Below, in pieces: positions 4,144 to 48,065 of a stretch of 48,065 nt of DNA; within the stretch, counting starts at the first letter, position 1; every line of letters starts with the position of its first letter. The translations under genes and the position numbers were made by a program. The stretch covers positions 1-48,065 of the forward strand of contig CANJCB010000030.1 of NCBI GenBank assembly GCA_947473305.1, in the 5' to 3' direction. The notes below the pieces were generated by a model. It was given only the letters and a program-made list of their open reading frames with translations. It had not been told where the DNA came from and searched no databases. Source of the DNA: Rhodospirillales bacterium. Its GTDB lineage: Bacteria > Pseudomonadota > Alphaproteobacteria > ATCC43930 > CGMCC-115725.

Positions 4144-4150
4144 CAGCGCA

Positions 4151-4156: not shown

Positions 4157-4268
4157 GTTGCATAGCGGCGCACTCTGCCTGATAGACGATCCCTTGTCAC
4201 CGATGGTTGCGCGAAGGGGCGTGGCGTCGCTATCATCGGCGATTGCCGCATCGGGTCCGGGAGCAAGG

Positions 4269-4616: not shown

Positions 4617-4631
4617 CGAGGGCGAGAGCCC

Positions 4632-5504
4632 TTACCAGCGGAAGCCGGTGATGACCGCATTGGGTCGCTGACCGCTCGCCGCGATCGCCGCTTCGAGCCT
4701 GACGAGATCGGGCAATTGGCCTTCCGCGAGGCCGAATTCCTCGGCGTGGATGCCGCCGGCCACGAGCACGCAGTCGATACCGACGCCGTTCGCTCCGGCG
4801 ATATCGGTGCGCAGGCTGTCGCCGACGGCGAGGATGCGGCTGCGGTCCTCGATGCCCAGGAGGCCGAAGCAGGTGTCATAGACCGAGGGCAGGGGCTTGC
4901 CGTGCCAGCGCACCCGGCCGCCCAGCTCTTCATAGCGCTTGGCGAGCGCCCCGGCGCAGATCATCGCCCGGCCCTTGTGCATGACGATGAGGTCGGGATT
5001 GACGCAGACCATCGGGAGGTCGCGGGCCTGGCCTGCGCGAAGCAGGGGCTCGTAAGCCTCGACCGAGGTATCCATGCCCCAGGGGCCGGTATTGAGGATG
5101 AAGGCGGCGTCGGCGACGTCCTCAACCTTTTCGGCGTCGATGCCGGCCAGCATATTGTCGTCGCGCGGTGGACCGATATGGTAGCAGGTCCGCCCCATCT
5201 CGGCATAAAACGGTTCGTCGCGGCGGGAAAGATGCTGCCAGGCTTCTTCGCCCGAGGTCATGACATGGTCGTAAAGGCCGGGCGGGATGCCGATCTCGGT
5301 CATGCGCACCGCCACCAAATCGGCACGGCGCGGGGCGTTGGACAATACTACGATCCGCTTGCCCGCCGCCTTCAGCCGGGTAAGCCCATCGACCACGCCC
5401 GGGAAAGGCTTCGTGCCGTCATGAAGCACGCCCCAGAGATCGAGGATGAAGCCGTCGTAACGGCCGGCAATCTCGCCGAGGCCGGAAAGAATGGAGATGC
5501 TCAT
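4632..5504 (-). CDS. HAD-superfamily class IIA phosphatase (TIGR01459-like)
   Basis: The 290-residue cytosolic protein carries the HAD-IIA motifs: motif I DLWGVLHDG (22-30), with Asp22 as the expected nucleophile; motif II SNAPRR; and motif IV VGDSLRTDIAGA near the C-terminus. The cap is of the IIA (NagD-like) type by its position between motifs II and III. The second Asp usual in motif I (DxD) is Trp24 here; I recall DLWGV as normal for this subfamily, so this is not a defect. Substrate is unknown; relatives hydrolyse sugar phosphates or p-nitrophenyl phosphate. It converges on the His-rich gene with 15 bases between the stops. Confidence 0.85.
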   Translation of the reverse strand: MSISILSGLGEIAGRYDGFILDLWGVLHDGTKPFPGVVDGLTRLKAAGKRIVVLSNAPRRADLVAVRMTEIGIPPGLYDHVMTSGEEAWQHLSRRDEPFYAEMGRTCYHIGPPRDDNMLAGIDAEKVEDVADAAFILNTGPWGMDTSVEAYEPLLRAGQARDLPMVCVNPDLIVMHKGRAMICAGALAKRYEELGGRVRWHGKPLPSVYDTCFGLLGIEDRSRILAVGDSLRTDIAGANGVGIDCVLVAGGIHAEEFGLAEGQLPDLVRLEAAIAASGQRPNAVITGFRW

Positions 5505-5588
5505 GAAACGGGAAGCCCCTGTCGTCGCGGGAGCGTCCTAAATGCCATGGATCCGATAAGGCCGCAAAGCGTTCGTTGCGACAGTGGA

Positions 5589-5780
5589 TCAGGGCCTCAG
5601 CGGCTCGAATTGACCCTGGGCGTCCGCCTCGATCCGTTCCGCCGCGCGCAACAGGTCGTCCGCCTTGCGCGTCAATTCGGGGCATGAACCGGGCTTGCTG
5701 TCCGCCTCACGCCGCGCCTCTTCGGACGCGCGCCTGAGATCTGAAGCGATCTGTTCGAAATCGACCGGACCGTCGCTCAT
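5589..5780 (-). CDS. Small hypothetical helical protein (63 aa)
   Basis: The 63-residue product is strongly charged and probably helical, with Glu/Arg-rich segments such as LRRASEEARREAD and LLRAAERIEAD. It has no membrane segment. The ATG at 5780 is preceded by AGGAG nine bases upstream on the minus strand, which supports real translation. It lies between pyrD and the HAD gene, all leftward, and an AT-rich stretch (about 5840-5880) upstream could hold its promoter. Function unknown. Confidence 0.6.
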   Translation of the reverse strand: MSDGPVDFEQIASDLRRASEEARREADSKPGSCPELTRKADDLLRAAERIEADAQGQFEPLRP

Positions 5781-5896
5781 GAGAACGCACTCCTGCCGGG
5801 GGACGGAAACAATCGCAACGAACTACGCCAGGGAAACGCGGAAACCATAAATTAAGGTTAACGCATAATTAATATCTGTCAAGAGTCGCGACACTG

Positions 5897-6979
5897 TCAG
5901 GCGGCGGGACTCGGCTTCCCTGTAACGGCTGTCCCGATGGCCTCCGCGACGGTGGCGTAGCCGTCGCGGGCGAGCAGATCGGCGAGTTCGCTTTTGACCG
6001 TCGCCGCCAAGCCCGGGCCGCGAAAGACCATCGCCGAATAGAACTGCACGAGGCTCGCACCGGCGCGGATCTTCGCATAGGCATCGGCGCCCGAGGCGAT
6101 ACCGCCTGCTCCGATCAGCGGGATACGACCGTTCGTGAGGCGATACATGTCCATCAGAACCTCGGTCGAGGGCTGGAAAAGAGGCTTGCCGCTGAGCCCG
6201 CCCGGTTCATGGGCGTAGCGGCTCTGAAGCTCCGGCGGCCGGGCGAGGGTGGTATTGCCGATCATCAATCCGTCGATCCCGGAGGAGACCGCGACTTCGG
6301 CCAGATCGGCGCGTTCTTCCTCAGTGAGATCGGGCGCGATCTTGACGATCAGCGGCGGCGGATTTTGAGGCACGGCGATAGCGCGGGCCTTGAGCAGCCG
6401 CTCGATCAGCGCGATCACCGTGCTCCGGCGCTGCAGCGCCCGGAGCCCCGGCGTATTGGGCGAGGAGATATTGACCACCACATAGTCGACGAGCGGCGCG
6501 AGCAGCGTCACCCCCTGCTCGAAGTCGCCGATGTCATCGGCCGTCTCGCGGTTCTTGCCGACATTGGCGCCGACGATCCCGCCGCGACCCTTGCGGGCCG
6601 CGAGATTCGCCGCCGCATAGGCGAGGCCTTTACTGTTGAAGCCGAAGCGATTGATGACGGCCTCGTCCTCGGTAAGGCGGAAAAGCCGGGGCTTGGGGTT
6701 TCCAGGCTGCGGCCGCGGCGTGACGGTTCCCGCTTCCGTGAAACCGAAGCCGAAGCTCAGCATCGCGTCGCAGACTTCGGCATCCTTGTCGAAACCGGCG
6801 GCCAGGCCGACCGGGTTCGGAAAATCGAGGCCCCAGAGATTGATCCGCAGGCTCGGCGGATCCGCCGCCGGCTTTCCCCCGAAAGGCCCGAGCGCGAGCA
6901 GCTTGATCGCCAGCTTGTGAGCAGGCTCCGGTGGCAGCAGGCGGATGAAAGGAACGGCGAGGCTGGCGAGGTCGGTCAT
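5897..6979 (-). CDS. pyrD: Dihydroorotate dehydrogenase (quinone), class 2
   Basis: PyrD oxidises dihydroorotate to orotate in pyrimidine synthesis and passes electrons to the quinone pool at the inner membrane. The 360-residue product has a class 2 N-terminal amphipathic extension (LASLAVPFIRLLPPEPAHKL), the FMN-binding AAGFDKDAE region (61-68), the active-site motif NISSPNTPGLR with Ser173 as catalytic base, and the C-terminal phosphate-binding GAGGIASGADAYAKIRAG. I chose the ATG at 6979 because the class 2 N-terminus begins there; upstream codons in frame overlap the DUF952 gene. It starts 7 bases after that gene's stop, so the two are probably co-transcribed. Confidence 0.96.
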   Translation of the reverse strand: MTDLASLAVPFIRLLPPEPAHKLAIKLLALGPFGGKPAADPPSLRINLWGLDFPNPVGLAAGFDKDAEVCDAMLSFGFGFTEAGTVTPRPQPGNPKPRLFRLTEDEAVINRFGFNSKGLAYAAANLAARKGRGGIVGANVGKNRETADDIGDFEQGVTLLAPLVDYVVVNISSPNTPGLRALQRRSTVIALIERLLKARAIAVPQNPPPLIVKIAPDLTEEERADLAEVAVSSGIDGLMIGNTTLARPPELQSRYAHEPGGLSGKPLFQPSTEVLMDMYRLTNGRIPLIGAGGIASGADAYAKIRAGASLVQFYSAMVFRGPGLAATVKSELADLLARDGYATVAEAIGTAVTGKPSPAA

Positions 6980-6986
6980 CGGGCCG

Positions 6987-7334
6987 TCAATCGAAAGGAG
7001 GAAAGATGTGCCGGCCATCGGGCCCGAGCGGAAGGTCCGCCCAGCGCACGACCGCCCGGACCGGGATAGGCCCATAGGAATGGGGGAAAAGCTGACCGCC
7101 TCTGGCCGGCTCCCATTTCAAGGCCTCGCCCAATTTTGCCGGATCGACGGCCAGCAGCACGAGGTCGGCCTGCCCGGCGCGGTGCTTGGCGGCGCTTTCG
7201 GCGATCTGGGCGGAGGTCGAGAGGTGGATGAAGCCGTCGGCCGCATCCTGGGAGGAACCGGGATAGCTTCCGCTGGCCTGCGCATCCTGCCATTCCCGGC
7301 GGTGGCACATATGGTAGATAAGGGCTTCGGTCAT
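6987..7334 (-). CDS. DUF952 domain protein
   Basis: The 115-residue protein has the features of DUF952: an N-terminal IYHMCHRREW segment, the DGFIHLSTSAQI motif and a C-terminal half of PHSYGPIPVRAVV type. Members are small cytosolic proteins whose fold resembles ADP-ribosyltransferase-like or RES-type proteins; no activity is established that I can cite. It precedes pyrD with a 7-base gap and is divergent from the helicase gene (47 bases between starts), so it probably heads the DUF952-pyrD transcript. Confidence 0.85.
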   Translation of the reverse strand: MTEALIYHMCHRREWQDAQASGSYPGSSQDAADGFIHLSTSAQIAESAAKHRAGQADLVLLAVDPAKLGEALKWEPARGGQLFPHSYGPIPVRAVVRWADLPLGPDGRHIFPPFD

Positions 7335-7381
7335 GAAGGGACGCTAACGCAAGCGATGGGCTTGGAACAAGTGAAGAGCGC

Positions 7382-10117
7382 ATGAGCGGTGTCGCCCCGG
7401 TTGTCCGCGTTCCGGCCGCCTGCGCGCTCGCGGTCGGATTTTCCCAGGCGGTGTGGCTCGATGGCGACGGCGAGGTCGCGATCCTGCCGCATCGCGATGC
7501 GGCGCGCCGGGCGCAGCAGGAACCGCCTTTCGTCTGTCACGCCCGTGCGGTCGCGCGCCGGATGGGCGTCCATCCCTTCGCGAGCTTCGACCTCCTCGAA
7601 CTCTATGCCTTCGTGCGGCCGGCGCAATTCTGCCTGCCGACGCCGCGCGGAGTTGCGGCGGCGCTGGGTTTGCCTTTGCCGCGAGGTCTGGAAGAGGAAG
7701 CGCTGACCCTCGTCACCGCCGCATCGCTGCTGCTGGCGGAATGCGCGCGGCGCGCGCCGGAAGATCGGGACGCCGCGCAGATCGCCGCTGCCATGGCGAG
7801 AGGCGGTTGGGGCTGGGGATCGGCGGTTCTGGAAGCGCTGGGGGCTCCCGCCGCCAGCCCGAGCCTGGCCGTTTGGCGACGTCTGCCGGAATGGGCGGAA
7901 CAGGCGCCGGAGCCGCCGCCCGGCAGTGCGCCGGTGGAAGAACATGAAGCGCGCCGCCGTCTGGGGGAATTGCTGGGCGCGGGGGCGGAGGCGCGTCCCC
8001 AGCAATCGGATTATGCGGCGGCGGTCAGCGCGGCCTTCATGCCGCGCCAGACGGAAAATGAGCCCAATGTGGTGCTCGCCGAAGCGGGAACCGGGGTCGG
8101 CAAGACCCTGGGCTATATCGCCCCGGCGAGCCTCTGGGCAGAAAAGAACCGGGCGGCGGTCTGGATCTCGACCTATACCCGGAACCTTCAGCAGCAGATC
8201 ACCGGCGAACTCGACCGACTCTATCCGGAACCGGCGATCAAGGACCGCCGTGTCGTGATCCGGAAGGGGCGGGAAAACTATCTCTGCCTCCTGAATTTCG
8301 AGGAGGTCGCTTCGGGCGCCATGATGAGGCCGCAAGACGCGGCGGCCCTTGGCCTCATGGCGCGATGGATCGCGGCGACCCGGGAGGGCGACATGGTCGG
8401 TGGGGATTTCCCCGGCTGGCTCCCCGATCTCCTGGGACGGGGCCGCACCCTTGGCCTGGCCGACCGCCGCGGGGAATGCATCCACTCGGCCTGCACCCAT
8501 TATCACCGCTGCTTCATCGAGAGGAGCGTGCGCCGGGCTCGGCGTGCGAGGATCGTGGTGGCCAACCATGCGCTCGTCATGGTGCAGGCCGCCATGGGCG
8601 GGCTCGACGACACCAATCTGCCGACGCGCTATGTCTTCGACGAAGGCCATCATGTCTTCGATGCGGCGGATAGCGCCTTCTCCCTGGCTCTGTCGGGGCA
8701 GGAAGCCTCGGAACTCCGGCGCTGGATGCTGGGGGTCGAGGAGGGCGGACGCGGGCGGGCGCGGGGTCTTCGGCGTCGGGTCGAGGATCTCCTCGCCGAT
8801 GACGACGTCGCCCAGGAAGCGCTGCTCGCGGCCTTGGCGGCGGCGCGTATCCTTCCCGCCGAGAGTTGGCTCGCGCGCCTTTCCGAGGGGCGGCCTTTCC
8901 AGGCGACGGAGGCCTTCCTGGCCTTGGTCCGGCAGCAGGTTCACGCCCGCGCCGCCGGCCGCGACGCGGGCTATAGCCTTGAAGCCGAAGCAAGACCGCC
9001 GGGCGACGGCCTGCTTGCTGCCGCGGCTACCCTTCGCGCCGGGCTCGGAAAGCTTTCAGGGGCTTTGCATCTTTTGGCTGAGCGCTTGCAGCGCCGGCTC
9101 GAGGTGGAAGCCGCCGATCTCGACACCAATATCCGGCAAAGGATCGAGGCGATGCTGCGCAGTCTGGAGCGGCGCGGTGAAATCGAGGTCGAAGGCTGGC
9201 GCCGCATGCTGGCGGATCTTGCGACGGAGCCCTCGGATCGCTTCGTCGATTGGCTCGCGATCGACCGGATTGACGGGCAGGAGACCGATGTCGGCATGCA
9301 TCGGCACTGGGTCGACCCGACCATTCCCTTCGCGACCACGGTGGCGGAGCCCGCCCATGGATTGCTCGTCACCTCGGCGACGCTGACCGATGGCACGGGA
9401 GATGTGGAGGCGGATTGGGGAATTGCCGAGGCCCGGACGGGAGCCCGGCATATCGCGCGTCCCGCTTACCGGGCCAGGGTTCCCTCGCCCTTCGATTACC
9501 CGGCCCAGACCCGCGTCTTTGTCGTCACCGACGTGCGGCGCGACGATCCGGGCCAGGTGGCCGCGGCCTATCGCGCTCTCTTCCAGGCTTCGGGCGGCGG
9601 GGCTCTGGGGCTTTTCACCGCGATCTCAAGGCTGCGCGCCATCCATAAAAGGATCGCGCCCGATCTGGAGGCCGCGGGGATTCCGCTGTTCGCCCAGCAT
9701 GTAGACGCCATGGATAACACCACGCTCATCGATATCTTCCGGGCGGAGGAGGATGCCTGCCTCCTTGGCACCGATGCGGTGAGGGACGGGGTGGATGTGC
9801 CGGGCCGGTCCCTCAGGCTCATCGTCTTCGATCGCGTGCCTTGGCCTCGGCCCGATATCCTGCACAAGGCGCGGCGCGATGTTTTCGGGGGAAGTCGCTA
9901 CGACGACATGCTGGCGCGGTTGCGCCTGAAGCAGGCCTTCGGCCGCCTCGTCAGGCGCGCCGACGACATGGGTGTCTTCGTCCTGCTCGACCCCGCGATG
10001 CCGAGCCGCCTTGCGGGCGCTTTTCCGGAAGGCGTTTCCATCGAACGGGTCGGTCTCGCCGAAGCGGTCGGTGGGGTTGCGGCTTTTCTCGCGAAGCCGA
10101 CGGAAGATCGGCACTAA
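7382..10117 (+). CDS. DinG/Rad3-like superfamily 2 iron-sulfur DNA helicase
   Basis: An ATP-dependent 5'-3' helicase of the XPD/DinG class is expected. The 911-residue product has Walker A EAGTGVGKT (Lys241), Walker B in the DEGH form at 420-423, and between them a Cys-rich segment (NYLCLLNF, then GECIHSACTHYHRCF) matching the 4Fe-4S domain of this class. The C-terminal helicase half has GTDAVRDGVDVPG (motif V-like) and QAFGRLVRR (motif VI). An N-terminal region of about 220 residues is specific to this protein; I see no clear nuclease motif in it. Likely role is unwinding of recombination or replication intermediates or R-loops, by family. It stands alone, divergent from DUF952. Confidence 0.9.
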   Translation: MSGVAPVVRVPAACALAVGFSQAVWLDGDGEVAILPHRDAARRAQQEPPFVCHARAVARRMGVHPFASFDLLELYAFVRPAQFCLPTPRGVAAALGLPLPRGLEEEALTLVTAASLLLAECARRAPEDRDAAQIAAAMARGGWGWGSAVLEALGAPAASPSLAVWRRLPEWAEQAPEPPPGSAPVEEHEARRRLGELLGAGAEARPQQSDYAAAVSAAFMPRQTENEPNVVLAEAGTGVGKTLGYIAPASLWAEKNRAAVWISTYTRNLQQQITGELDRLYPEPAIKDRRVVIRKGRENYLCLLNFEEVASGAMMRPQDAAALGLMARWIAATREGDMVGGDFPGWLPDLLGRGRTLGLADRRGECIHSACTHYHRCFIERSVRRARRARIVVANHALVMVQAAMGGLDDTNLPTRYVFDEGHHVFDAADSAFSLALSGQEASELRRWMLGVEEGGRGRARGLRRRVEDLLADDDVAQEALLAALAAARILPAESWLARLSEGRPFQATEAFLALVRQQVHARAAGRDAGYSLEAEARPPGDGLLAAAATLRAGLGKLSGALHLLAERLQRRLEVEAADLDTNIRQRIEAMLRSLERRGEIEVEGWRRMLADLATEPSDRFVDWLAIDRIDGQETDVGMHRHWVDPTIPFATTVAEPAHGLLVTSATLTDGTGDVEADWGIAEARTGARHIARPAYRARVPSPFDYPAQTRVFVVTDVRRDDPGQVAAAYRALFQASGGGALGLFTAISRLRAIHKRIAPDLEAAGIPLFAQHVDAMDNTTLIDIFRAEEDACLLGTDAVRDGVDVPGRSLRLIVFDRVPWPRPDILHKARRDVFGGSRYDDMLARLRLKQAFGRLVRRADDMGVFVLLDPAMPSRLAGAFPEGVSIERVGLAEAVGGVAAFLAKPTEDRH

Positions 10118-10144
10118 AAACCCGCCAGCCCGGAGGCTGGCGGG
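10116..10144 (-). terminator. Intrinsic terminator of the porin gene
   Basis: A perfect 10-bp stem (10121-10130 with 10135-10144, loop of 4) is followed on the minus strand by TTTTT (10120-10116). It lies 23 bases after the porin stop. The T tract overlaps the last bases of the helicase stop codon. Confidence 0.9.
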
Positions 10145-10167
10145 TCCATAGGCGGTGTCTTACGGGC

Positions 10168-11478
10168 TTAGAACTTCACCTGGGTCGAGAACTGGAGGCG
10201 ATAGTCCTCGCCGAAGTTCAGGTTGGCATTCGTATTCATGGTCCGACGCGAGATATAGACCAGTTCGAGGCCGGTGTTCACCTGGGGCACCGGGCTCCAA
10301 ATGACGTTCGCGGTACCCCAAGTGGCCCATTTATTCGTCCCGTTCAGGACTGTATCGAGCGCAGCCACGCCGCCGCTGAGATCATGCGTCGCGGACATGC
10401 GCTCATAGGGCATGGTCGCGCTGGAGCGCAGCGTGTCCGTCCAATAGTGCAGGTAACCGAGCATGCCGCCGAACTCGCGAAGGGCCTTGGCACGGCCGTT
10501 CACAAAGTTCACCTCGACATCCTCGCCGGGGCTGTTGCCCGTCTCGCGCGAGCCGCCTTCATTATAGACCACGCTCGCGATGATGCTGTCCTTGCCGAAG
10601 GTGTTGATGCGAGCACCAGCAACCGACGACCAGCCGAGCACCGTCTTCTTGAACCCCGTGCCGTTCTGAGCGGTAATGGCCGTCAAGCCGCCACCGATAT
10701 GCGCATGGCCCCAAGGTTGGTCGATCTTATAATCAGCCGCGATTTGGGGGATATGGCTCGCACCATTCGACCCAGGAACCTGGCTCAGCAGCGTGGCCGC
10801 GCCGGTATTCTCGACAAGCGACGACTCAGGCTCTTCGATGCCGAGCGCGATCGACTGACCCGCAGGCATCAGATAAGTATAGCGAACCTGCGGGACACGG
10901 GTCGGGCCGCCGGTGGCCAGCGAGCCTTGGAAGTCCAGGGACTCGGGGCTCACCACGCCATCAGACTGGATGCCGGTCTGCTGACCGACCAGCCACGGGC
11001 CGATCGTGGCATAGGCGATACGGAGGCGGAAACCGTAGCTGTTGGTGCCGACACGCAGCGACGCGGCATTGGTGGTGCCGGAAGATTGGATGAAGTCGCC
11101 TTCGATAAAGGTCTTCACTTCGCCGTAGGCCGACGGCGTACGGGTCTCGAAGTTGAACCGGGACTCCGAGGCGTTCACCTGAAAGCCATGGCTTTGGCTA
11201 TGGGCGAAGTTGGCTGCGCCTTGCAGGTTCACGCCCGCCGACGATACGCCGCCGATGTTGCCCTGGATCGAATTGATGTCGTAGGTCACGTCCAACTTGA
11301 CGTAGCCACCGACTTTTAGCGACGTGTTCGTGCCCGGAACCAGGAACGAGCCTGGGAATGAGCCGGCGCCCGGCGCCGTCTGCGCGCTGGCCCCGGCAGC
11401 CCCGACGAGCAGCGCAACGGCTGCGGTCAAGGTGCCTAGAACGAGCTTGGCCTCAGATCGCCTTGATCTGCTCACCAT
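10168..11478 (-). CDS. DcaP-like outer-membrane porin
   Basis: A 436-residue outer-membrane beta-barrel protein: signal peptide of about 33 residues (Arg-rich start, hydrophobic core, AGASAQ), then LKVGGYVKLDVTYD, the first barrel strand typical of DcaP-family trimeric channels, many alternating aromatic/hydrophilic strands, and a C-terminal strand ending in Phe (FSTQVKF), the signal for BAM insertion. DcaP relatives import small anionic compounds such as dicarboxylates; the substrate here is unknown. GGAGGGAG lies about 10 bases before the ATG. A strong terminator follows. The upstream region contains inverted repeats, and the next gene upstream is a tandem HTH regulator in the same direction. 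Confidence 0.85.
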   Translation of the reverse strand: MVSRSRRSEAKLVLGTLTAAVALLVGAAGASAQTAPGAGSFPGSFLVPGTNTSLKVGGYVKLDVTYDINSIQGNIGGVSSAGVNLQGAANFAHSQSHGFQVNASESRFNFETRTPSAYGEVKTFIEGDFIQSSGTTNAASLRVGTNSYGFRLRIAYATIGPWLVGQQTGIQSDGVVSPESLDFQGSLATGGPTRVPQVRYTYLMPAGQSIALGIEEPESSLVENTGAATLLSQVPGSNGASHIPQIAADYKIDQPWGHAHIGGGLTAITAQNGTGFKKTVLGWSSVAGARINTFGKDSIIASVVYNEGGSRETGNSPGEDVEVNFVNGRAKALREFGGMLGYLHYWTDTLRSSATMPYERMSATHDLSGGVAALDTVLNGTNKWATWGTANVIWSPVPQVNTGLELVYISRRTMNTNANLNFGEDYRLQFSTQVKF

Positions 11479-11690
11479 AATGTCTTTCTCCCTCCGAAAT
11501 TGATGACCCGCGATGGCAGCGAGCCGGGAGGACGATCATCGATAATTCCTGGCGAAGACAATATAAGAGACGAAATTTCATTTATTTATATTGTCGTAGT
11601 GGGATTAATACAACATTTGTATTTATGAATATTTGAATATTCTCCAACGTGGTCTGGTGTTTAAATTCATTATCGTTGCATTTCTGCAAC
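11479..11690 (-). promoter_or_regulatory. AT-rich control region of the porin gene with two inverted repeats
   Basis: This gap between the porin and the HTH gene is much richer in A/T than its surroundings. It holds a 10-bp inverted repeat GACAATATAA / TTATATTGTC (11557-11566 and 11586-11595) and a shorter perfect one, ATACAA-CAT-TTGTAT (11608-11622). Both are symmetrical like dimer operators. The half-site ATACAA returns upstream of the HTH gene. No protein-coding frame is evident. A clear -35/-10 pair could not be chosen. Confidence 0.5.
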
Positions 11691-12284
11691 TCACTCCGCT
11701 GCGAAGGGGGCGTGTTCGGGTGCAATCGATTTTCCGTATCCGTGGTCGCGGAAAACGCTCACTCCCGTTCGGAGTCTGACGCCGGGGCCGCCGGGCGCCA
11801 GCGGTACGCCCGCCTGAATGAACTCGATTCCCGCTTCTTCCAAGGCGTGCTGCACGGCAAGCGAACGCCCTTTCGTCGTCGGCAGGGTCGCGCGCCCTTC
11901 GATGCGAGAAATCATCCCGACACTCACGCCCGCCTGGGCGGCCAGGTCGCGAGCCGTCCAGCGGAGCAAAGCGCGTGCGGCCCTGATCTGTTCAGGTTGA
12001 AGGCTGTAGAGCGCGCGCGAAGGGCCTCGGTCGTTTTCCGGATCCCGCAACCGAACGCCAGGGCCGCTCCCGAAGAAGGGGACCCCCGGAGGCAGGACCT
12101 CAATGCCGGCCGCTTGGATCGCCGCTTCGACGGCTTCGATAGAGACGCCGAGGGGCGAGCGCATGCTCTCATAGTTTTCCATATGGCGCAGCGTCTCGGC
12201 GGAGAGATGAGCGCGATCGGCAAGCGTTTTCACCGACCATCCCAATAGAGCGCGGGCCGCGCGGATCTGGCTTGCTTTCAGCAT
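11691..12284 (-). CDS. Transcriptional regulator with two tandem XRE-type HTH repeats
   Basis: The 197-residue protein consists of two copies of the same module. Copy one (6-80) reads QIRAARALLGWSVKTLAD and ends GPGVRLR; copy two (99-172) reads QIRAARALLRWTARDLAA and again ends GPGVRLR. Each is an XRE-like helix-turn-helix followed by a short beta/turn tail. Single-module versions are common small alphaproteobacterial regulators, so this is an internal duplication or fusion able to bind two half-sites with one chain. The ATG at 12284 has GGAG nine bases upstream. The porin gene lies 212 bases downstream in the same direction and is a natural candidate target. Confidence 0.85.
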   Translation of the reverse strand: MLKASQIRAARALLGWSVKTLADRAHLSAETLRHMENYESMRSPLGVSIEAVEAAIQAAGIEVLPPGVPFFGSGPGVRLRDPENDRGPSRALYSLQPEQIRAARALLRWTARDLAAQAGVSVGMISRIEGRATLPTTKGRSLAVQHALEEAGIEFIQAGVPLAPGGPGVRLRTGVSVFRDHGYGKSIAPEHAPFAAE

Positions 12285-12728
12285 ATAGAAATTCTCCGCT
12301 CGGTCGCGGCAAGGGGCGGCGCTTTCCCCTACGGATGCGGGAGATGGGCCGGATTCCTGCCAGTTATGCGGCGGCGAAAAACCGTTCGATCCCGGACGTG
12401 GGCCGAAGCAGAAATCCGTTGCGCGCGTTTGACGATGAGGAGAACTGGTACTCGTCAGTAAAGTGACCATTCAAATTAAATCTCTGTAAGGTGCATAAAT
12501 ACAACAATATTGGATGTGAATAATGAATCTCTATAAATGTCTACAATACACTGAACTATTTGGTTCATATTCTTGTATGCGAATTCGGGACAACCGGAGG
12601 CGATCCCTTCGTCGCCTAGGGCGTGTCTATCCGCAAGGAGCGGTGTTCGATCTCAGAAAGAAGATGTAAAAAGGGGCATTGCCCTCAGTTCAATGCCCCG
12701 CGGCACGGCGGGCGCCAAGGAAGCGACG
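12285..12728. other. Non-coding region between the divergent HTH regulator and TerB-like genes
   Basis: No supportable gene in these 444 bases. The part near 12,470-12,600 is AT-rich and holds scattered half-sites: ATACAA at 12499-12504, TTGTAT at 12573-12578 and an inverted repeat TGAAC-N6-GTTCA at 12552-12567. They may be operators for the HTH regulator. The part next to the TerB gene holds a perfect hairpin (12673-12699), listed separately. Confidence 0.6.
12668..12699 (-). terminator. Leftward hairpin with T tract upstream of the TerB-like gene
   Basis: A perfect 9-bp stem GGGGCATTG / CAATGCCCC (12673-12681, 12691-12699) with a 9-base loop is flanked on its left by AAAAA (12668-12672), so on the minus strand it reads as stem plus TTTTT, an intrinsic terminator shape. 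No minus-strand gene ends here. It could end hisC read-through transcription, or be a structure in the TerB 5' leader. Confidence 0.45.
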
Positions 12729-40039: not shown

Positions 40040-42172
40040 ATGAGCGATCTGAACATTGGTAATTTTATCTGGAACATCGCCGACGATGTTCTGCGAGATG
40101 TCTACGTTCGCGGCAAATACCGGGATGTCATCCTGCCGATGACCGTCATTCGCCGCCTCGACGCCGTGCTTGAACCGACCAAGGACGCCGTCCTGGGCAT
40201 GAAGGAGCAATTGGACAAAGCAGGCATCGCGAATCAGCGCGCCGCACTGTGTCAGGCCTCAAAAGAAGCCTTCTACAACACCTCGCAGTTCCGACTTCGC
40301 GATCTTAGCGCGCGCGCGCGCCGCCAGCAGTTGAAGTCGGACTTCGAGGCCTACCTCGACGGCTTCTCCCCGAACGTCCAGGAGGTGCTCGATAAGTTCA
40401 AGTTCCGCAATCAGATTCCGACGCTTGTCGAAGCGGACACGCTGGGCTTCCTGATCGAAAAATTCCTCGACCCGTCGGTCAATCTCAGCCCCAAGCCAGT
40501 CCTGCACCAGGATGGCAGCGTGCGCTTGTCGGGGCTCGACAACCATTCCATGGGTACAATTTTCGAAGAGCTGATTAGGCGATTCAATGAGGAAAACAAC
40601 GAGGAGGCCGGCGAGCACTTCACTCCGCGAGACGTGGTGGAACTTATGGCTTGCCTGATCTTCATGCCGATCGCGGACGAAATTCAGTCCGGCACCTACC
40701 TTGTGTACGACGGTGCGTGCGGCACGGGCGGTATGCTCACGGTCGCGGAAGGGACACTGGTCAAGCTAGCGGCCGACCATGGCAAAGACGTCTCCGTCCA
40801 CCTCTATGGACAGGAGGTCAATCCGGAGACCTTCGCGATCAGTAAGGCTGACCTCATCCTCAAAGGGGAAGGCGCAGAAGCCGAGAACATGAAGTACGGA
40901 TCAACCCTGTCCAGCGATGCCTTCCCATCGGGGGAGTTCGATTTCATGTTGTCGAACCCGCCCTACGGCAAGAGCTGGAAATCGGACCTCGATCGGCTTG
41001 GTGGCAAGAAGGACATCGCCGACCCGCGGTTTGTGATCGAACACGGTGGCGATCCCGAATACAGCCTTATCACGCGCTCCAGCGATGGCCAGATGGTGTT
41101 TCTGGCGAACATGCTAAGCAAGATGAAGAAAGCTACCAAGGTCGGTAGCCGCATCGCCGAGGTCCACAATGGCTCATCACTCTTTACGGGCGATGCGGGA
41201 TCGGGCGAAAGCAATGTGCGGCGCTGGGTAATAGAGAACGATTGGCTTGAGGCCATTATCGCGCTGCCGCTGAACATCTTCTACAACACCGGCATCGCGA
41301 CCTACATCTGGGTGCTGAGCAATCGCAAGGCGCCATCCCGTAAGTGCAAGGTCCAGCTGATCGACGCAACGGCGTGGTCCAAGCCGCTGCGAAAGAACCT
41401 CGGTAAGAAGAACTGCGTTCTCGAGCCGGACGACATCAAGCGTATCTACGATAGCTTCATCAACAGCGAGGAAAGCGAGCAGTCGAAGATCTTCCCCAAC
41501 GATGCCTTCGGTTACTGGAAGGTGACGGTGGAACGGCCGTTACGCCTAAAAGTTGAACTATCGGCGAGCGCGCTGCGCCGCTTCGCCAAGGCGTGCGCGG
41601 AAGCTGCGGAAGATCCTCTCGTCGGCGTTGTGGATGCGGTCATCGAACGGCTCGGCGAACGGCCCCATTTCGATTTCAACCGCTTCCTTCAAGAAGCCGA
41701 AACTGCGGCGAGCAAGCGGGGCGTCCGCATGACGGCAAAACGCCAGAAGCTCCTCATGGATGGGCTCGGCATCAAGGACGCTGGAGCGGAACCGCTCATC
41801 AAGAGAGTGTCCAAGATCAAGCCGGGCGCCGATGCCGAGTCCGATGCGCTCTATGGCAGCTACCACAAGCCCCATGGCGGCAAGCCGGCCATTGTCGAGT
41901 ACGAGTCGGACACGGAGTTGAGGGACACCGAGCAGGTGCCGTTTTTGGAAAATGGGGGCGTTGAGGCATTCTTCCGCCGAGAGGTCCTGCCCCATGCGGC
42001 TGACGCCTGGATCGATTCGTCGAAGACCGTCATCGGCTACGAAATCTCCTTTACGCGGCACTTCTACAAGCCGCAGCCGCTGCGAACGCTCCAGGAGATT
42101 GAGGCAGACATCCGGGCGCTGGAGCAAGAAACCGAAGGTCTTCTTGAAGACGTGCTGAAGGGGGGCCACTGA
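40040..42172 (+). CDS. hsdM: Type I restriction-modification methyltransferase subunit HsdM
   Basis: HsdM methylates adenine N6 in the target chosen by HsdS, protecting host DNA. The 710-residue product has the HsdM N-terminal helical domain ([20 protein letters not shown] ... [15 protein letters not shown]), the pre-catalytic [16 protein letters not shown]-binding motif [10 protein letters not shown] (224-232), and catalytic motif IV NPPY (306-309), followed by an extended C-terminus (about 480-710) ending in a coiled-coil-like [14 protein letters not shown]. It is longer than the roughly 500-residue minimal HsdM. First gene of the operon; DUF262 begins 2 bases after its stop. Confidence 0.95.
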
Positions 42173-42174
42173 GC

Positions 42175-43971
42175 ATGGCTACTCAACGCTACTCCGTCAC
42201 CCCCCATCCGATTGAAACCCTGCTCACCTGGGTGAAGTCTGGCGAGATCGCAATTCCGGAGATCCAACGCCCTTTCGTGTGGGATGCGACGAAGGTCCGG
42301 AACCTTTTGGATTCGCTCTATCAGGGCTATCCGGTGGGCTATCTGATCGCATGGCGGAATCCGTCGGTGCGCCTGAAGGACGGGTCCTCATCGTCAGGCA
42401 AGCGCATCCTGATCGATGGCCAGCAACGGGTGACAGCGCTGATGGCGGCGCTGCTCGGTCGAGAGGTTCTGACCAAAGACTACGAAACCGTCCGGATCCG
42501 CATCGCCTTTCACCCCGTGGACGAGAAGTTCGAGGTTTCGAACCCCGCCATCCAGAAAGACGTCGCGTGGATTCCCGATCTAGCGGAGGTCTTCGCGCCG
42601 GACGCTAGCCTGACGAAGCTGACGCGCGACTATGCGACCCGGAACCCAACCGTCGATCAAGACGAAGTGTCCATCGTCCTCGAACGGGTGCGCAAGATCA
42701 TCAACAATCATGTCGGCTTCATCGAGCTGGCCGAAGACCTCGACATCGAGACGGTGACCGAGATCTTCATCCGAGTGAATTCGGCCGGCGCATCGCTCAG
42801 CCAGGCGGATTTCGCCATGTCGAAAATCGCGGCGAACGATACCTATGGCGGCAACATGCTGCGCAAGGCGATCGACTATTTTTGTCACCTTGCCGTCGCG
42901 CCGGAGTTCCTGCCCCGCATCGAGAAGGGCGACAAGGCCTTCGCAGCATCCGAGTTCCTGCCGAAGATGCGCTGGTTGAAGGACGTAAATGACGACCTCT
43001 ACGACCCGTCCTACACCGACATGCTTCGCGTGGCATTCACGTCGGAGTTCCGTAGGGGCAAGCTCCAAGACCTCGTTGCACTGTTGTCGGGCCGGAACTT
43101 CGAGACGAAGCAGTATGAGGAAACGGTCGCCGAGGAAGCCTTCGCCCGCCTGAAGACCGGCGTGCTGAACTTCATCAACAAGACGCATTTCGACAGGTTG
43201 ACGATGACCCTGCGCTCCGGAGGCTTCGTTACTTCAGGACTTATCCGCAGCCAGAACGCCATCAACTTCGCCTATATCCTCTACCTGCGCGGCCGCACCG
43301 ATGGGATGCCCGCCGCCGACATCGAGCGTCTCGTCCGGCGTTGGTACGTCATGTCGCTCCTGCGAGGGCGCTATTCGGGCAGCCCCGAGACGGCCTTTGA
43401 TTTTGATATCCGCCAGATCGAGTCACGCGGCCTTGCCGCTTACACGGATGCGGTGATCGACGCCGAACTGCCGGAGAGCTTCTGGACCACGCTGCTGCCG
43501 CAGGAGATGGACACGTCGTCGGCCTCGAGCCCCTACTTCCTCGTCTATCAGGCGGCGCAAGTGAAACTCGGCGATCTCGGGTTTCTGTCGAGGGACATCA
43601 CGGTGCGAGACCTGCTGCTGAACCGAAGCGACGTGCATCACGTCTACCCGCGCAATTACCTGAAGGGCCAGGGTCTGACGCGCGGCCGCTACAACCAGAT
43701 CGCCAACTTCGTAGTCGCGCAAAGCGAGATCAACATCGGCATCGGGGACCGCGATCCGAAGGCATATTTCGCCGAACTGGCGGACCAGTGCAACGGCGGC
43801 ATTCGGAAGTATGGCGGTATCACTGCGAATGACGAGATGCGCTCTAACCTGCGCATCAGCTGCCTGCCGGAGTGCCTTCTCGACGGCGAAGTCCCACCGT
43901 TCGATGATTTTCTCGAACAGCGGCGCAAGCTGATGGCCCAGAAGATCAAGACCTATTTCGAAGGCCTTTGA
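42175..43971 (+). CDS. GmrSD-like DUF262 protein with C-terminal HNH-type motif
   Basis: The 598-residue protein has the DUF262 (GmrS) signature near its start, [11 protein letters not shown] (27-37) and ILIDGQQR (78-85), the latter being the nucleotide-binding/hydrolysing motif, a long helical middle, and near the C-terminus [13 protein letters not shown] (486-498) followed by an Asn-rich [16 protein letters not shown], the H-x-x-P...N layout of DUF1524/HNH nuclease domains. GmrSD enzymes are type IV restriction enzymes that cut glucosylated hydroxymethylcytosine DNA. Here it lies inside a type I operon, between hsdM and the remaining genes. Target preference cannot be read from sequence. 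Confidence 0.88.
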
Positions 43972-44014
43972 GAATGATGTCGGGGACACGCAAACGCAAG
44001 TGGAGGGGCGAGAA

Positions 44015-45049
44015 ATGGCTGAACGGGACGATCTTCTCGCGTCGATAGTTGCAACAACTGCCGACTATCGTGAGGGTGACCTGCCTGCTCCGACCCCGGA
44101 GCACGTCGAACGCTGGATCAACCAGTTCGACGCGGCGGTGCAGCTCCCGATCCTGCGCGAGATGGATCACGTCCTCAAGCAGACCTACTTCTCACGGAAA
44201 GGGACGCGAAAGTTCCTGGCCGGGCTGTTCCAGACCGAAAAGCTGGTTGGCGAGGACCCATGCGCCTTCTGGAAAGGCGCGAAGTTCCTTGACATTCAGG
44301 GCGGCGGCGCCAGCCAGAAGGAGATGCTCGCGCTGTTCAGCAAGGTGCTGGAGAAACAGTGCGGGCTTGAAGCTGCCGATTGTGGTGAAGCTCCCCACGC
44401 CTTCGTCTATCTGGATGACGCCATCTTCACCGGGAACCGTGTCAGGCGCGATCTCGAAACATGGATCGCTGAGCAGGCTCCGGCCGAAGCGAAAGTGCAC
44501 GTTGTTACGATCGCGCTGCATAGCGGCGGCCAATATTACGCGAACGGCAAAATCAAAGAAGCCGCGAAGACTGCCGGCAAGAACATCGACCTGACGTGGT
44601 GGCGCGCGATCGAGCTGGAAGACAGAAGGGCCCACACGACGACGTCCGATGTTCTTCGGCCGGTTGCGATCCCCGACGATGAAGGAGTCAGGGCCTACGT
44701 GGCGGGGATGCGCTATCCGCCGAATTTGCGCACCGCAGGTCATGTGGGCGGAAATGGTATCTTCTCCAGCGACGCCGGCCGCCAGCTCGTGGAAGAGGAA
44801 TTCCTGAAGGCGGGCGTGCGCATCCGGCAAATGTGCCCGCATCTGAATCAGTACCAGAGGCCGTTGGGCAACATTGTCCTCGACACGCTTGGCTTCGGTT
44901 CGATGATCGTCACCTTCCGGAACTGCCCGAACAACGCGCCTCTCGTACTCTGGGCCGGCGATCCCTGGCATCCCCTTTTTCTGCGCACAACCAACAGCGA
45001 CACGTCGATGAAGCGCTTTATGGCGATGCTGGCGAAGGACGTGGTCTGA
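44015..45049 (+). CDS. Phosphoribosyltransferase-fold protein of conflict-system type
   Basis: The 344-residue protein has one clear motif, VYLDDAIFTGNRV (about 131-143), matching the PRPP-binding loop of type I phosphoribosyltransferases (four hydrophobics, two acids, x3, T-G). An N-terminal helical region (HVERWINQFD, MDHVLKQTYF) and a C-terminal half with WAGDPWHPLFLRT are unfamiliar but resemble PRTase-like proteins that occur in defence loci. Substrate is unknown; a base-exchange or nucleotide-salvage reaction is only inference. ATG 44015 follows GGAGGGG. Its TGA overlaps the start of the NADAR-HsdS gene by one base, so the two are coupled. Confidence 0.72.
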   Translation: MAERDDLLASIVATTADYREGDLPAPTPEHVERWINQFDAAVQLPILREMDHVLKQTYFSRKGTRKFLAGLFQTEKLVGEDPCAFWKGAKFLDIQGGGASQKEMLALFSKVLEKQCGLEAADCGEAPHAFVYLDDAIFTGNRVRRDLETWIAEQAPAEAKVHVVTIALHSGGQYYANGKIKEAAKTAGKNIDLTWWRAIELEDRRAHTTTSDVLRPVAIPDDEGVRAYVAGMRYPPNLRTAGHVGGNGIFSSDAGRQLVEEEFLKAGVRIRQMCPHLNQYQRPLGNIVLDTLGFGSMIVTFRNCPNNAPLVLWAGDPWHPLFLRTTNSDTSMKRFMAMLAKDVV

Positions 45050-47151
45050 TGTCCCAGGCCAGCCAGGTTCGCACATATGACCCCGCAGCCAGCGTCGTCT
45101 TCCTGAAGACGAACGAGCGGTTCGGCGGTCTGTCGAACATGGCGCCCGGCTTTCCGCTGCGGGTGAACGGCGTTCGCATCCGCACGTCGGAAGCCCTCTA
45201 CCAGGCATGCCGCTTTCCGCACCTGCCCGAGGTGCAGCGCAAGATCATCGACGAGCACAGCCCGATGACGGCGAAGATGCGCAGCAAACCATTCCGCAAG
45301 GAGTCGCGGCCGGACTGGGACGCGGTGCGCGTGAAGATCATGCGCTGGTGCCTGAGGGTGAAGCTGGCGCAGAACTGGCGCGAGTTCGGCAGGCTGCTGC
45401 TGGCGACGGGAGACCGCCCCATCGTCGAACAATCCCGCAAGGATGATTTCTGGGGCGCGAAGGTCGCCGAGGACGGATCGCTCGTCGGCATGAACGTGCT
45501 GGGCCGCTTGCTGATGGAAGTTCGCGAGAAGCTGAAAAGCGATGAGGCGAGCTTGAAGTCCGTTGAGCCGCTGGCGATCCCCGAGTTCCTTCTGCTCCAG
45601 CAGCCGATCGAGATGATTTGCGCCGAGGTCTCCGCTTCGCGGCCAGCCGAGGTTGAGCCGCACGCGTCTTGGCCCGTCGCTGCGCCGCCCCCACGCGACC
45701 TGCCGCAACCCTCGCTTTTCGACCAGCCGATGATCGCCAAGGGTCGGATGGATATTCAAACCAGTCGCGTCGTCAAGGCCAAAGGCAACAAGAACCCCAC
45801 GCCCTATTCGGGGTATCGCGACAGCGGCCTACCTTGGCTTGGTCGGATCCCGCAGCATTGGGACGTGCGCCGCAACGGACGATTGTTCGCCGAGCGAAAT
45901 CAAACAGGCTTCGAGGACTTGCCGATCCTGGAGGTATCGCTGCGGACGGGCGTCAGGGTGCGCGACATGGAGAACGGCGCGCGCAAGCAGCAGATGACCG
46001 ACCGCAGCAAATACAAGCGCGCGGCCAAGGGTGACATCGCTTACAACATGATGCGGATGTGGCAAGGTGCCGTCGGCGTCGCGCCGGTCGATGGTCTCAT
46101 CAGCCCCGCCTATGTGGTGGCGCGTCCATTCGCCGAGGTCGAACCGCGCTACTACTCGTACCTGTTCAGAACCGCCGCCTATATGCGCGAGGTCAACAAG
46201 TTCTCGCGCGGCATCGTTTCAGACCGAAATCGGCTCTATTGGGACGAATTCAAGCAAATGCCGTCGGTCTTTCCGCCGACGGACGAACAGGCGCGGATCT
46301 CTGAGTTTCTCGAGGCGCATGGCCGCCTTGCGGCTCGCCTGATCCGCAATAAGCGGCGGCTGATTGGGCTGTTGAACGAGCAGAAGCGAGCGATCATCAA
46401 TCAGGCGGTCACGCGCGGGCTGAACCCCGACGCCCCGGTGAAGCCCACCGGTATCGTTTGGATGTCGGAAGTACCCGCGCACTGGGAGGTCACCCCGTTG
46501 CGCCACCTTTCGACTTGTCTAGACGGCAAACGGGTACCGCTCGAAGCATCTGCGCGTGAGAAGATGCTCGGTGATACCCCATACTGGGGCGCGAACCAGA
46601 TCATCGATCACTTGAACGACTTCTTGTTCGACGAAGATCTAGTCCTGCTCGGCGAAGACGGAGCGCCCTTCTTTGACCGCAACAAGTCAGTGGCGTTCTT
46701 CTCCCAAGGCAAGGTCTGGCCCAATAATCACATTCACGTCCTAAGACCCAAGCCAAGCAATCGGCCCGAGTTTATCGTGCATGCGCTAAATTGCGTAGAC
46801 TATATGAACTACGTCGGTGGCGCCACGCGTGACAAGCTCACGCAGAGCTATATGAAGGCCATCCCCATTCCGATCCCACCGAAGAGCGAGCAAGACGTCA
46901 TTCTCGAGCATTTAGAGCGGGAATGCGCGCCATTGGACGAAACGGCCAAACGGGCTGCGCGCGAGGTTGGGTTTATTCAGGAATATCGCGAGCGCCTGAT
47001 TGCCGATGTCGTTACAGGCAAGCTGGACGTGCGACAAATCGAAATCGCCGCGCCCGCGGACGAGCCGATCTTCGACGAAGATGACGCGCTGGAAGAGGAG
47101 CTGGAAGTCGACGATACCGACGTGGTGGAGGGAGCCGATGCCGACGACTGA
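45049..47151 (+). CDS. NADAR domain fused to type I specificity subunit HsdS
   Basis: One 700-residue chain in two parts. Residues about 14-162 are a NADAR (YbiA/DUF1768) domain: SVVFLKTNERFGGLSNMAPG, RTSEALYQACRF, a KIIDEHSPMTAKM segment, and DDFWG ... GMNVLGRLLMEVRE, all hallmarks of the family. YbiA cleaves N-glycosidic bonds of riboflavin intermediates, and other NADAR members remove ADP-ribose from guanine. After a linker (about 165-245), residues 250-690 are an HsdS with two target-recognition domains: first GLPWLGRIPQHWDVRR (260-275), second VWMSEVPAHWEVTPLRHL (470-487), each followed by conserved helices (FLEAHGRLAARL; LERECAPLDE). The tail is acidic. The ATG at 45049 overlaps the PRTase stop. 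Confidence 0.88.
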   Translation: MSQASQVRTYDPAASVVFLKTNERFGGLSNMAPGFPLRVNGVRIRTSEALYQACRFPHLPEVQRKIIDEHSPMTAKMRSKPFRKESRPDWDAVRVKIMRWCLRVKLAQNWREFGRLLLATGDRPIVEQSRKDDFWGAKVAEDGSLVGMNVLGRLLMEVREKLKSDEASLKSVEPLAIPEFLLLQQPIEMICAEVSASRPAEVEPHASWPVAAPPPRDLPQPSLFDQPMIAKGRMDIQTSRVVKAKGNKNPTPYSGYRDSGLPWLGRIPQHWDVRRNGRLFAERNQTGFEDLPILEVSLRTGVRVRDMENGARKQQMTDRSKYKRAAKGDIAYNMMRMWQGAVGVAPVDGLISPAYVVARPFAEVEPRYYSYLFRTAAYMREVNKFSRGIVSDRNRLYWDEFKQMPSVFPPTDEQARISEFLEAHGRLAARLIRNKRRLIGLLNEQKRAIINQAVTRGLNPDAPVKPTGIVWMSEVPAHWEVTPLRHLSTCLDGKRVPLEASAREKMLGDTPYWGANQIIDHLNDFLFDEDLVLLGEDGAPFFDRNKSVAFFSQGKVWPNNHIHVLRPKPSNRPEFIVHALNCVDYMNYVGGATRDKLTQSYMKAIPIPIPPKSEQDVILEHLERECAPLDETAKRAAREVGFIQEYRERLIADVVTGKLDVRQIEIAAPADEPIFDEDDALEEELEVDDTDVVEGADADD
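45739..45750 (+). promoter_or_regulatory. Possible internal translation start for HsdS alone
   Basis: AAGGG (45739-45743) lies four bases before an in-frame ATG at 45748 (Met234), right at the boundary between linker and HsdS domain. Use of this start would give a free HsdS of about 467 residues beside the NADAR fusion. Confidence 0.3.
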
Positions 47152-47995
47152 CACCAGCGAGAAAGGCCTCGAAGCTCTCATCGTCCGCGCGCTGGTCGAC
47201 GAGGCGGGCTATGTCGCCGGGGATTCGAAAGATTTCGACCGCGACCATACCATCGACGTGGTGAAGCTGTTCGCTTTTCTGAATGCCACTCAGCCAGACG
47301 CGGTCGAGGCATTGGGGATCGGAGAGGATGGCCCGAAGCAGCTGCAATTCCTGCACCGGCTGCAAGGCGAGATCGCGAAACGCGGTGTCATCGACGTGCT
47401 GCGCAAAGGAGTGAAACACGGCCCCGGCGCTGTGGAGCTGTTCTTCGGCACGCCGACGCCTGGCAACGCAAAGGCCAAGGAGTTGTTTGCCGCCAACATC
47501 TTTAGCGTCATCCGCCAACTACATTATTCGAAGGACGCGACCAAGCTGTCCCTAGACGTAGCTATCTTCATCAACGGCCTGCCCATCGCCACGTTTGAGC
47601 TGAAGAACAGCCTGACTAAGCAGACGGTCGAGGACGCGATCGAACAGTACAAGCGCGACCGCGATCCCAAGGAGCTGCTGTTCCAGTTCGGTCGCTGCGT
47701 CGTCCATTTCGCCGTGGACGACCAGGAGGTGCGGATGTGCACGCATCTGAAGGGTAAGGCGTCCTGGTTCCTGCCCTTCAATAAGGGCTGGGACGACGGC
47801 GCGGGAAACCCGCCTAACCCCCATGGGCTGAAGACCGACTATCTGTGGAAGCAGATTCTAACCAAGCGCAACCTAACCGACATCCTGGAAAACTATGCGC
47901 AGGTGGTCGAGGAGAGCGACGAGGGGGGCAAGAAGAAGTCGCCGAAGCAGTGTACGCCGTCAGCGTCTATGAGACAGAATTGGGGTATTGATTAG
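47138..47995 (+). pseudogene. hsdR: Type I restriction subunit HsdR, N-terminal nuclease part, truncated
   Basis: The frame starts at ATG 47138 after GGTGGAGGGA, overlapping the hsdS stop by 14 bases. Residues 1-271 match the HsdR N-terminus, with the PD-(D/E)xK nuclease core: Asp140 in KLSLDVAIF, and Glu154-Leu-Lys156 in ATFELKN, then EDAIEQYKRD. HsdR is usually near 1000 residues, with helicase/translocase domains after this point. Here sequence leaves the family after KKKSPKQ at 47950, adds 14 unrelated residues and stops at TAG (47993-47995). The junction coincides with a TGTACG insertion-element-like end. The motor domains needed for restriction are missing, at least up to the window edge. 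Confidence 0.83.
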
Positions 47996-48065
47996 AGGAG
48001 GGTTTTGGTCTCATCGCAGTGACGAAGGAACGAAGATGAGAGCAAAACCCGTGAGTTCGAAAGCC
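47951..48065 (+). mobile_element. Left end of an IS3-family-like insertion sequence (truncated by window)
   Basis: Starts with TGTACGCCG at the exact place where hsdR coding sequence ends. It carries about 85 bases of non-coding leader and then a transposase start. The TGT end and leader length suit IS3-family elements. The other end and a target duplication are beyond the window. Confidence 0.6.
48036..48065 (+). CDS. Transposase OrfA start, IS3-family-like (only 10 codons in window)
   Basis: ATG at 48036 opens MRAKPVSSKA after a GAAGGAACGAAG ribosome site. I recall this start from IS3-group transposases with an N-terminal HTH, but ten residues cannot prove it. Confidence 0.5.
   Translation, partial: MRAKPVSSKA

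Follow-up and report, generated by a model that had tools for sequence, protein, structure and literature searches.

Why would a type I restriction-modification (R-M) operon carry, between the genes of its methyltransferase and its nuclease subunit, a phosphoribosyltransferase-like (PRTase) gene and a NADAR domain fused to its specificity subunit HsdS? The question is raised by a 48,065-nucleotide stretch of a Rhodospirillales bacterium (GenBank assembly GCA_947473305.1, contig CANJCB010000030.1), hereafter the window, which is one whole contig of a genome of 105 contigs. A sequence-only reading had described here five rightward genes, two of whose junctions are gaps (2 and 43 bases) and two overlaps (1 and 14 bases), and a check of the open reading frames (ORFs) confirmed these figures and the coordinates, with the fifth frame running to 47995. 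Its domain calls for HsdM, a GmrSD-like DUF262 protein, a PRTase and a NADAR-HsdS fusion were likewise confirmed by Pfam above curated cut-offs. The best explanation of our data is that a type I R-M operon took in the anti-phage pair DS-32 as a built-in second layer.

Pfam, PADLOC and NCBIfam concurred on the parts of the operon. HsdM is the N6-adenine methyltransferase of a type I system (Pfam N6_Mtase, 172.9 bits, and HsdM_N, 87.5 bits, both over the curated cut-off; PADLOC MTase_I, 825.8 bits). The PRTase scored 200 bits against Pfam PRTase-CE (above the curated cut-off) and 432.1 bits against the NCBIfam family DS32_1 (cut-off 250). It is followed in tandem, with a 1-base overlap at 45049, by a gene whose single chain matched both NADAR (93.6 bits) and Methylase_S (75.7 bits) above the curated Pfam cut-offs, and whose NADAR part scored 290.6 bits against DS32_2 (cut-off 240). 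A YbiA-type riboflavin enzyme was rejected as an identity for this part, TIGR02464 (80.0 bits, cut-off 73.7) being outscored by DS32_2. Because both proteins exceed the DS32 cut-offs, the pair is the catalogued anti-phage unit DS-32 (NCBIfam NF053875 and NF053876, both labelled anti-phage), with which it also shares gene order and overlapping or adjacent genes. Unlike in stand-alone DS-32, NADAR is no separate gene here: it forms the N-terminus of an HsdS chain of 700 amino acids (aa) within the hsd operon. The DS-n naming is that of DefensePredictor (PMC13092281), which mentions NADAR and PRTase among its validated systems; neither 'DS-32' nor 'DS32' occurs in the available main text, and we therefore infer the link between DS32 and DefensePredictor. 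In the literature consulted, as far as its texts were available, DS-32 is named but no mechanism is described for it.

The AlphaFold model of the PRTase had a mean pLDDT of 91.4. Comparison of the PRTase profile with PDB sequences yielded nothing credible, the best match (E 0.012) being an EF-hand protein, and a fold comparison was therefore needed. Foldseek alone was weak, with a best E of 0.014, no match below 0.001 and unrelated folds among the first 10 rows. VIA, a second look at Foldseek's own list in which Z values below 8 were common, gave a best Z of 9.1 over 123 residues, to a uracil PRTase, among the matches listed; of the 50 rows listed, 3 had uninformative titles and all others were PRTases or PyrR. 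Residues Y132, D134, D135, F138 and G140 were invariant in 32 PRTase rows and belong to a motif that we take to be the phosphoribosyl pyrophosphate (PRPP) loop. Together, the fold match and the conserved loop-like motif identify a PRTase core with such a loop. The C-terminal part resembles the PRTase of retron III-A (E 8e-9 in PADLOC, a partial profile similarity).

In the NADAR-HsdS model (mean pLDDT 68.1), NADAR occupies residues ~18-163 and is followed by a low-confidence linker (~195-247) and then by HsdS. Foldseek matched the chain to HsdS 1yf2 (E 4e-14), YbiA 2b3w (E 2e-5) and the ADP-ribose-bound NADAR 8bau (E 0.002), the latter two in its N-terminal part. HsdS has the expected two target-recognition halves and two long helices (411-456 and 612-655), the second half being modelled at low confidence. 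The assignment of the 44015 product to the PRTase fold, and of the 45049 N-terminus to NADAR, was thus upheld by structure models and fold comparison. Active-site positions E48, W90, E127 and W135, taken from PMC11543638 and transferred via the YbiA and 8bau alignments, were invariant in 20 of 20 rows. The catalytic Glu/acid pair E48 and E127 is retained, and the phosphate-binding Lys position is Arg.

A species-genome collection was scanned with the PRTase alignment; the best 80 of 167 relatives were kept, and all counts of genome loci (L numbers) refer to these. Context labels came from searching flanks of at most 10 kb with phmmer for nine query proteins ('alone' or neither where none of the nine was seen), and several loci end at contig edges. 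The gene set recurs in other genomes, and its arrangement is therefore not due to chance; with this recurrence and the two upheld folds, the sequence-only reading passed both of the checks that could have refuted it. Thirty-seven of the 80 loci lay in type I R-M operons, and NADAR was fused to HsdS in every one where it was visible (36/36; L039 ends at a contig edge). By their record labels these 36 belong to Pseudomonadota, Thermodesulfobacteriota, Verrucomicrobiota, Planctomycetota, Acidobacteriota and Chloroflexota, several being metagenome-assembled genomes. On a 111-row tree, which was quick and has its long branches flagged, the type I label needed 8 changes, 3 of them forced by starred branches. 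Among 398 genomes of the phylum, DS32_1 and DS32_2 were each above cut-off in 3, the same three, including that of the window.

A second, different host system also holds the pair. Six loci lay in operons of Hma (HmaABC, 'DUF499-centered BREX-related', PMC12839542), some of which carry the same pair with NADAR fused to HmaB: 4 were NADAR-HmaB fusions, 1 had a free NADAR (L068) and 1 met a contig end (L088). The fusion to the DUF1156/HmaB methylase was found in L060, L069, L070 and L084, and also in the IMG/VR record L175, where the operon (1221-12534) runs HmaA-PRTase-NADAR.HmaB-HmaC. PADLOC confirmed HmaA, HmaB and HmaC in L015, HmaB in L060, and HmaB and HmaC in L084; L069 and L070 showed NADAR plus DUF1156 by Pfam. 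In two genomes (L015, L016) the pair sits within an Hma operon with NADAR free. In the window, HmaA, HmaB and HmaC were not among the PADLOC matches listed for the five ORFs (the best 25 for HsdM and HsdS). The remaining 37 of the 80 loci had no R-M or Hma gene in their flanks, and comprised 34 free NADARs, 2 fusions to something else (DUF4365 in L096; a stretch with no Pfam match in L067) and 1 contig end (L106). Overall, NADAR was free in 35 loci, fused in 42 and cut by contig ends in 3 of the 80. In L096 (9986-13721) two PRTase genes precede the NADAR-DUF4365 fusion.

Viral and mobile records carry the pair as well. Of 33 IMG/VR loci, 5 were type I with the NADAR-HsdS fusion and 28 neither type I nor Hma; these loci are not all independent, since L026 and genome locus L037 are one contig, and equal scores were obtained for L113 and L122. 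The E. coli pair sits in lambdoid prophages (two records examined), and a related NADAR gene was found in 62 of 5,426 E. coli genomes by DNA similarity to a Klebsiella pair, with 18-22% query coverage among the matches listed. Pairs outside R-M operons were present on a Methylobacterium plasmid, on a Vibrio plasmid and in a Klebsiella record. By tblastn the window PRTase had three matches in the plasmid collection (29-50% identical, all of them PRTase-NADAR pairs outside R-M operons) and none in 50,697 phage records at 1e-5. Since the pair stands alone in prophages and plasmids, tethering by HsdS, on which the sequence-only reading had built, is no general requirement.

The PRTase-NADAR pair as such is known (DS32); its build with HsdS or HmaB is new relative to the literature searched. 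The NADAR-HsdS fusion, the NADAR-HmaB fusion and the PRTase exchange described below were not found in the open-licence literature searched, which included the available portions of PMC11543638, PMC11125620, PMC12839542, PMC9503650 and PMC11833690, subscription papers, preprints and supplements lying outside it.

The PRTase gene differs from its neighbours in how it varies. DNA identity between the window and its relatives L094 and L086 was computed in 150-base segments along the operon: it was 70-91% in GmrSD (63% in the last segment of L086), 47-70% in the PRTase gene, and 79-88% in the first three segments of NADAR, the fourth, which reaches the linker, falling to 58-67%. Among 666 pairs of type I rows, 219 had PRTases more than 15 points less alike than their NADARs, and none showed the reverse; the pairs derive from 37 type I rows that include the window and some viral loci and are not independent. 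We then compared clades in 22 picked type I loci plus the window (23 rows), the tested group being chosen from the PRTase tree. Loci L086, L091, L093, L094 and L098 formed one clade by their divergent PRTases (support 96), and this group was rejected as a clade of HsdM (AU p = 7.9e-7). The pair count could stem from a faster-evolving PRTase; the conflict with HsdM could not. By these sequence comparisons GmrSD and NADAR stay conserved, and the PRTase gene between them is swapped in the manner of a cassette.

The pairing is also one-way. NADAR lay downstream of the PRTase in 78 of 78 genome loci where it was visible and in 33 of 33 viral loci; L039 and L106 were excluded for their contig edges, and L096 was counted with its second PRTase gene intervening. 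Conversely, NADAR occurred without a nearby PRTase in 7 of 42 IMG/VR NADAR loci (L183, L184, L185, L204, L205, L206 and L207), an eighth candidate, L182, beginning at a contig edge. The seven records span 50-485 kb, and a whole-record search found DS32_1 in none of them, the same search being positive in 5 of 5 control records. In L183, L184, L205 and L207, DS32_2 scored 165-232 bits, under its cut-off of 240 and far over other NCBIfam models. As L184/L185 and L205/L206 gave equal match figures, they are probably near-copies, leaving about five lineages. Such orphan NADARs in large IMG/VR records are possible counter-defence genes, and the asymmetry of the pairing resembles that of toxin-antitoxin pairs. 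Separately, in three Vibrio replicons of ~0.9 Mb (L165, L166 and L167) a Dam methylase gene adjoins a NADAR gene, with no DS32_1 match.

The fused build suggests, from its sequence, two phage-defence layers in one machine. In our tentative proposal, which we hold at somewhat less than an even chance, the PRTase is the effector, and NADAR undoes or restrains it while tethered to the R-M complex. Chemistry, toxicity and trigger are here modelled by analogy on DarT1-NADAR, on the retron III-A PRTase, which has been called an effector (PMC12548924), and on PrrC. The PRTase would have nucleotides or nucleic acid as its substrate and PRPP, or a sugar-phosphate like it, as donor. NADAR, by family an N-glycosidic-bond hydrolase, would reverse or limit this chemistry, restraining the effector as NADAR does DarT1 in DarTG1, where the family supplies a base de-modifying enzyme (PMC11543638). 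DarTG2 in an E. coli type I operon (PMC12255303) offers a toxin-antitoxin pair placed inside hsd genes. Unlike in DarTG1 and DarTG2, a PRTase stands here in place of the ADP-ribosyltransferase (ART) and NADAR is fused to HsdS; no ART family was among the Pfam, PADLOC and NCBIfam matches of the five ORFs, and so no DarT beside NADAR. Being part of HsdS, NADAR would be present in every M2S complex and would follow the host DNA. If the R-M complex were sequestered, inhibited or outrun by a phage, the PRTase would be set free and growth would stop, much as PrrC guards EcoprrI in the PrrC/EcoprrI system (PMC2610378). The tRNase PrrC has no counterpart among the five ORFs by Pfam or PADLOC. It serves as a working model of an effector silenced by a linked type I complex. 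A NADAR that does not co-vary with the PRTase fits such a restraint, since an enzyme that undoes a product has no need to vary in step with whatever makes it, and non-cognate NADARs also protect against DarT1 (PMC11543638).

Several observations weigh against a restraining NADAR. R55 (20 of 20 rows) occupies the place of Lys95 of E. coli C7 NADAR, whose K95R variant hydrolysed in vitro and gave no rescue from toxicity (PMC11543638); the failure in cells speaks against an antitoxin role as simple as that with DarT1. Taken by itself, the NADAR tree is compatible with a clade of the loci that have divergent PRTases (p = 0.256), so that some of NADAR may have travelled together with the PRTase. 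Constant co-occurrence also fits two subunits of one effector, and the NADAR-DUF4365 fusion of L096 would fit an effector role for NADAR itself. A terminase model was matched in only 2 of the 7 orphan-NADAR records (G748, G749), whose viral status therefore rests mainly on IMG/VR; these NADARs may serve other roles, and the records may be fragments.

A rather unlikely alternative makes NADAR the effector, brought by HsdS or HmaB to unmethylated phage DNA, where it would split N-glycosidic bonds and remove bases or base modifications, with the PRTase as activator, sensor or supplier of a co-substrate. Such a role would account for the fusion of NADAR to HsdS (36 genome loci) and to HmaB (4, plus L175), which read or methylate DNA and come from unrelated systems, as well as to DUF4365, for its place next to the gene of a Dam methylase in 3 Vibrio replicons, and for its invariant catalytic Glu positions. 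However, a free NADAR beside the PRTase is about as common as a fused one (35 vs. 42), and delivery by HsdS is therefore not required; a NADAR without PRTase in large phage records would be odd for an anti-phage effector; and the NADARs tested so far undo guanine ADP-ribosylation (PMC11543638, PMC11125620).

We judge it unlikely, too, that an independent DS-32 is parked in a defence operon for shared expression or transfer, the fusion setting only the stoichiometry without mechanistic coupling to R-M. Pairs without R-M in E. coli prophages and the 37 of 80 loci without R-M or Hma genes are in keeping with independence, and embedding in type I operons is already published for GmrSD-like genes (TgvAB, PMC11411939) and for DarTG2 (PMC12255303). 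Between NADAR-HsdS and HsdR, seven scanned loci (L048, L049, L058, L062, L063, L065 and L113) hold varied genes of their own: DUF1828/1829, YhcG, AlbA/Schlafen, AAA plus McrBC, HTH-M78, macrodomain and RhuM. YhcG, AlbA/Schlafen, McrBC, macrodomain and RhuM share these operons as separate genes, whereas NADAR is fused to HsdS wherever visible and also to HmaB, and mere parking does not explain a fusion made repeatedly.

An extension of the restraint proposal, improbable in our estimate, is that the PRTase marks DNA or nucleotides with a sugar-phosphate and that NADAR, sitting in the sequence-reading subunit, erases the mark from patrolled self DNA; PRTases would be exchanged like target-recognition domains to outrun phage inhibitors, and large phages would use NADAR as an antitoxin mimic. 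If true, this would be a self/non-self circuit joining methylation-based recognition and an enzymatic toxin-antitoxin cycle in one protein. An addiction module that guards the R-M operon from loss, with phage defence secondary, is very unlikely: loss of hsdS would unleash the PRTase if NADAR is its restraint, and the PRTase and NADAR-HsdS frames remain open in this strain with HsdR broken, but NCBIfam names both families anti-phage and the pair also exists without R-M.

Returning to the restraint of a PRTase effector by a tethered NADAR, the fusions in two unrelated systems, the one-way pairing, the PRTase exchange and the orphan NADARs make effector versus restraint a testable hypothesis. It would bear on the way in which a second immune layer might be gated by an R-M complex, and would physically connect restriction-modification with NADAR chemistry on nucleic acid.

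Table 1. Features of the operon and its interrupted end in the window.
Feature	Position	Strand	Evidence
HsdM, type I N6-adenine methyltransferase, 710 aa, NPPY motif	40040..42172	+	ORF, Pfam, PADLOC
GmrSD/DUF262-like protein, 598 aa, optional passenger	42175..43971	+	ORF, Pfam, PADLOC
PRTase-CE / DS32_1 phosphoribosyltransferase-like protein, 344 aa, PRPP-loop-like motif FVYLDDAIFTGN	44015..45049	+	Pfam, NCBIfam, AlphaFold, VIA
NADAR-HsdS fusion, 700 aa	45049..47151	+	Pfam, NCBIfam, structure model
HsdR N-terminal fragment (HSDR_N nuclease part, without motor domains)	47138..47950	+	ORF, Pfam, HsdR of a relative
End of IS3-like element at contig edge, interrupting hsdR	47951..48065		DNA repeat in genome

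The GmrSD-like protein belongs to the DUF262 group (Pfam GmrSD_N, 102.3 bits, cut-off 33.2; PADLOC HEC-05, 100.3 bits) and carries the motifs IPEIQR, DGQQR and FIRVN. Of the HNH-type tail ascribed to it, the motif HHVYPRN...N...N, a candidate for a DUF1524 His-Me nuclease tail, is visible by eye in the ORF, but Pfam reported no model for this region. GmrSD had its full length in 14 of the 37 type I genome loci; L085 has it broken into pieces. As 23 of the 37 lack it at full length, it was rejected as a defining member of the set and is an optional passenger. A close GmrSD was not found in 384 other genomes of the same class (search at E 1e-50). TgvAB, a GmrSD-like pair in a V. cholerae type I operon (PMC11411939), resembles it as a DUF262 protein within an hsd operon; here there is one DUF262 protein, not two, between hsdM and the PRTase gene. 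Locus L210 provides an 'empty' comparator, with HsdM, GmrSD, HsdS, one extra ORF and HsdR, and neither PRTase nor NADAR. The composite defence operon of the sequence-only reading is therefore supported at the level of families, whereas its targeting of modified bases was not supported for the whole locus and, with GmrSD outside the fixed gene set, concerns that passenger only. Neither an attack on ADP-ribosylated nucleic acid nor site-specific base editing or repair was supported as stated.

The fifth ORF had been taken for an HsdR gene. The HSDR_N match stood (76.3 bits, above the curated Pfam cut-off), but the ORF is only the 5' fragment of hsdR: from ~47951 the sequence is foreign, the end of an IS3-like element present on 8 further contigs of the genome, and the hsdR frame continues into it to the stop at 47995. 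The best plasmid relatives lie at an ISSsp2-type IS3 transposase gene. With the 985-aa HsdR of a relative as query, only its residues 1-270 were matched in the genome of the window, and the rest of hsdR was found nowhere in it. Relatives with full-length HsdR exist (e.g. L026, and L033 from Rhodobacteraceae NBU2976), the SWI2/SNF2 motor of L026 lying at residues 312-541 of the translated stretch, downstream of the nuclease part; HsdR here lacks the motor domains. Judged from this truncated frame, the cutting arm is probably dead in this strain, and HsdM, GmrSD, PRTase and NADAR-HsdS are all still full-length frames.

Insertion elements and phage-like genes were also seen around pairs elsewhere. 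In L038 (9114-12545) a PRTase-NADAR pair (88% PRTase identity) lies between two transposase ORFs of identical translation; its NADAR frame terminates within the second, and the whole looks like a piece of the operon excised by insertion sequence copies. The free pair of L044 (5700-17741; 72% PRTase identity) stands among large ORFs that by eye resemble phage tail genes, and the C-terminus of its NADAR appears, also by eye, similar to the linker of the HsdS fusion. In L031 (5785-8573), an E. coli prophage pair, the PRTase gene has a shorter 5' end than in the other E. coli prophage record, and an IS4-like element adjoins.

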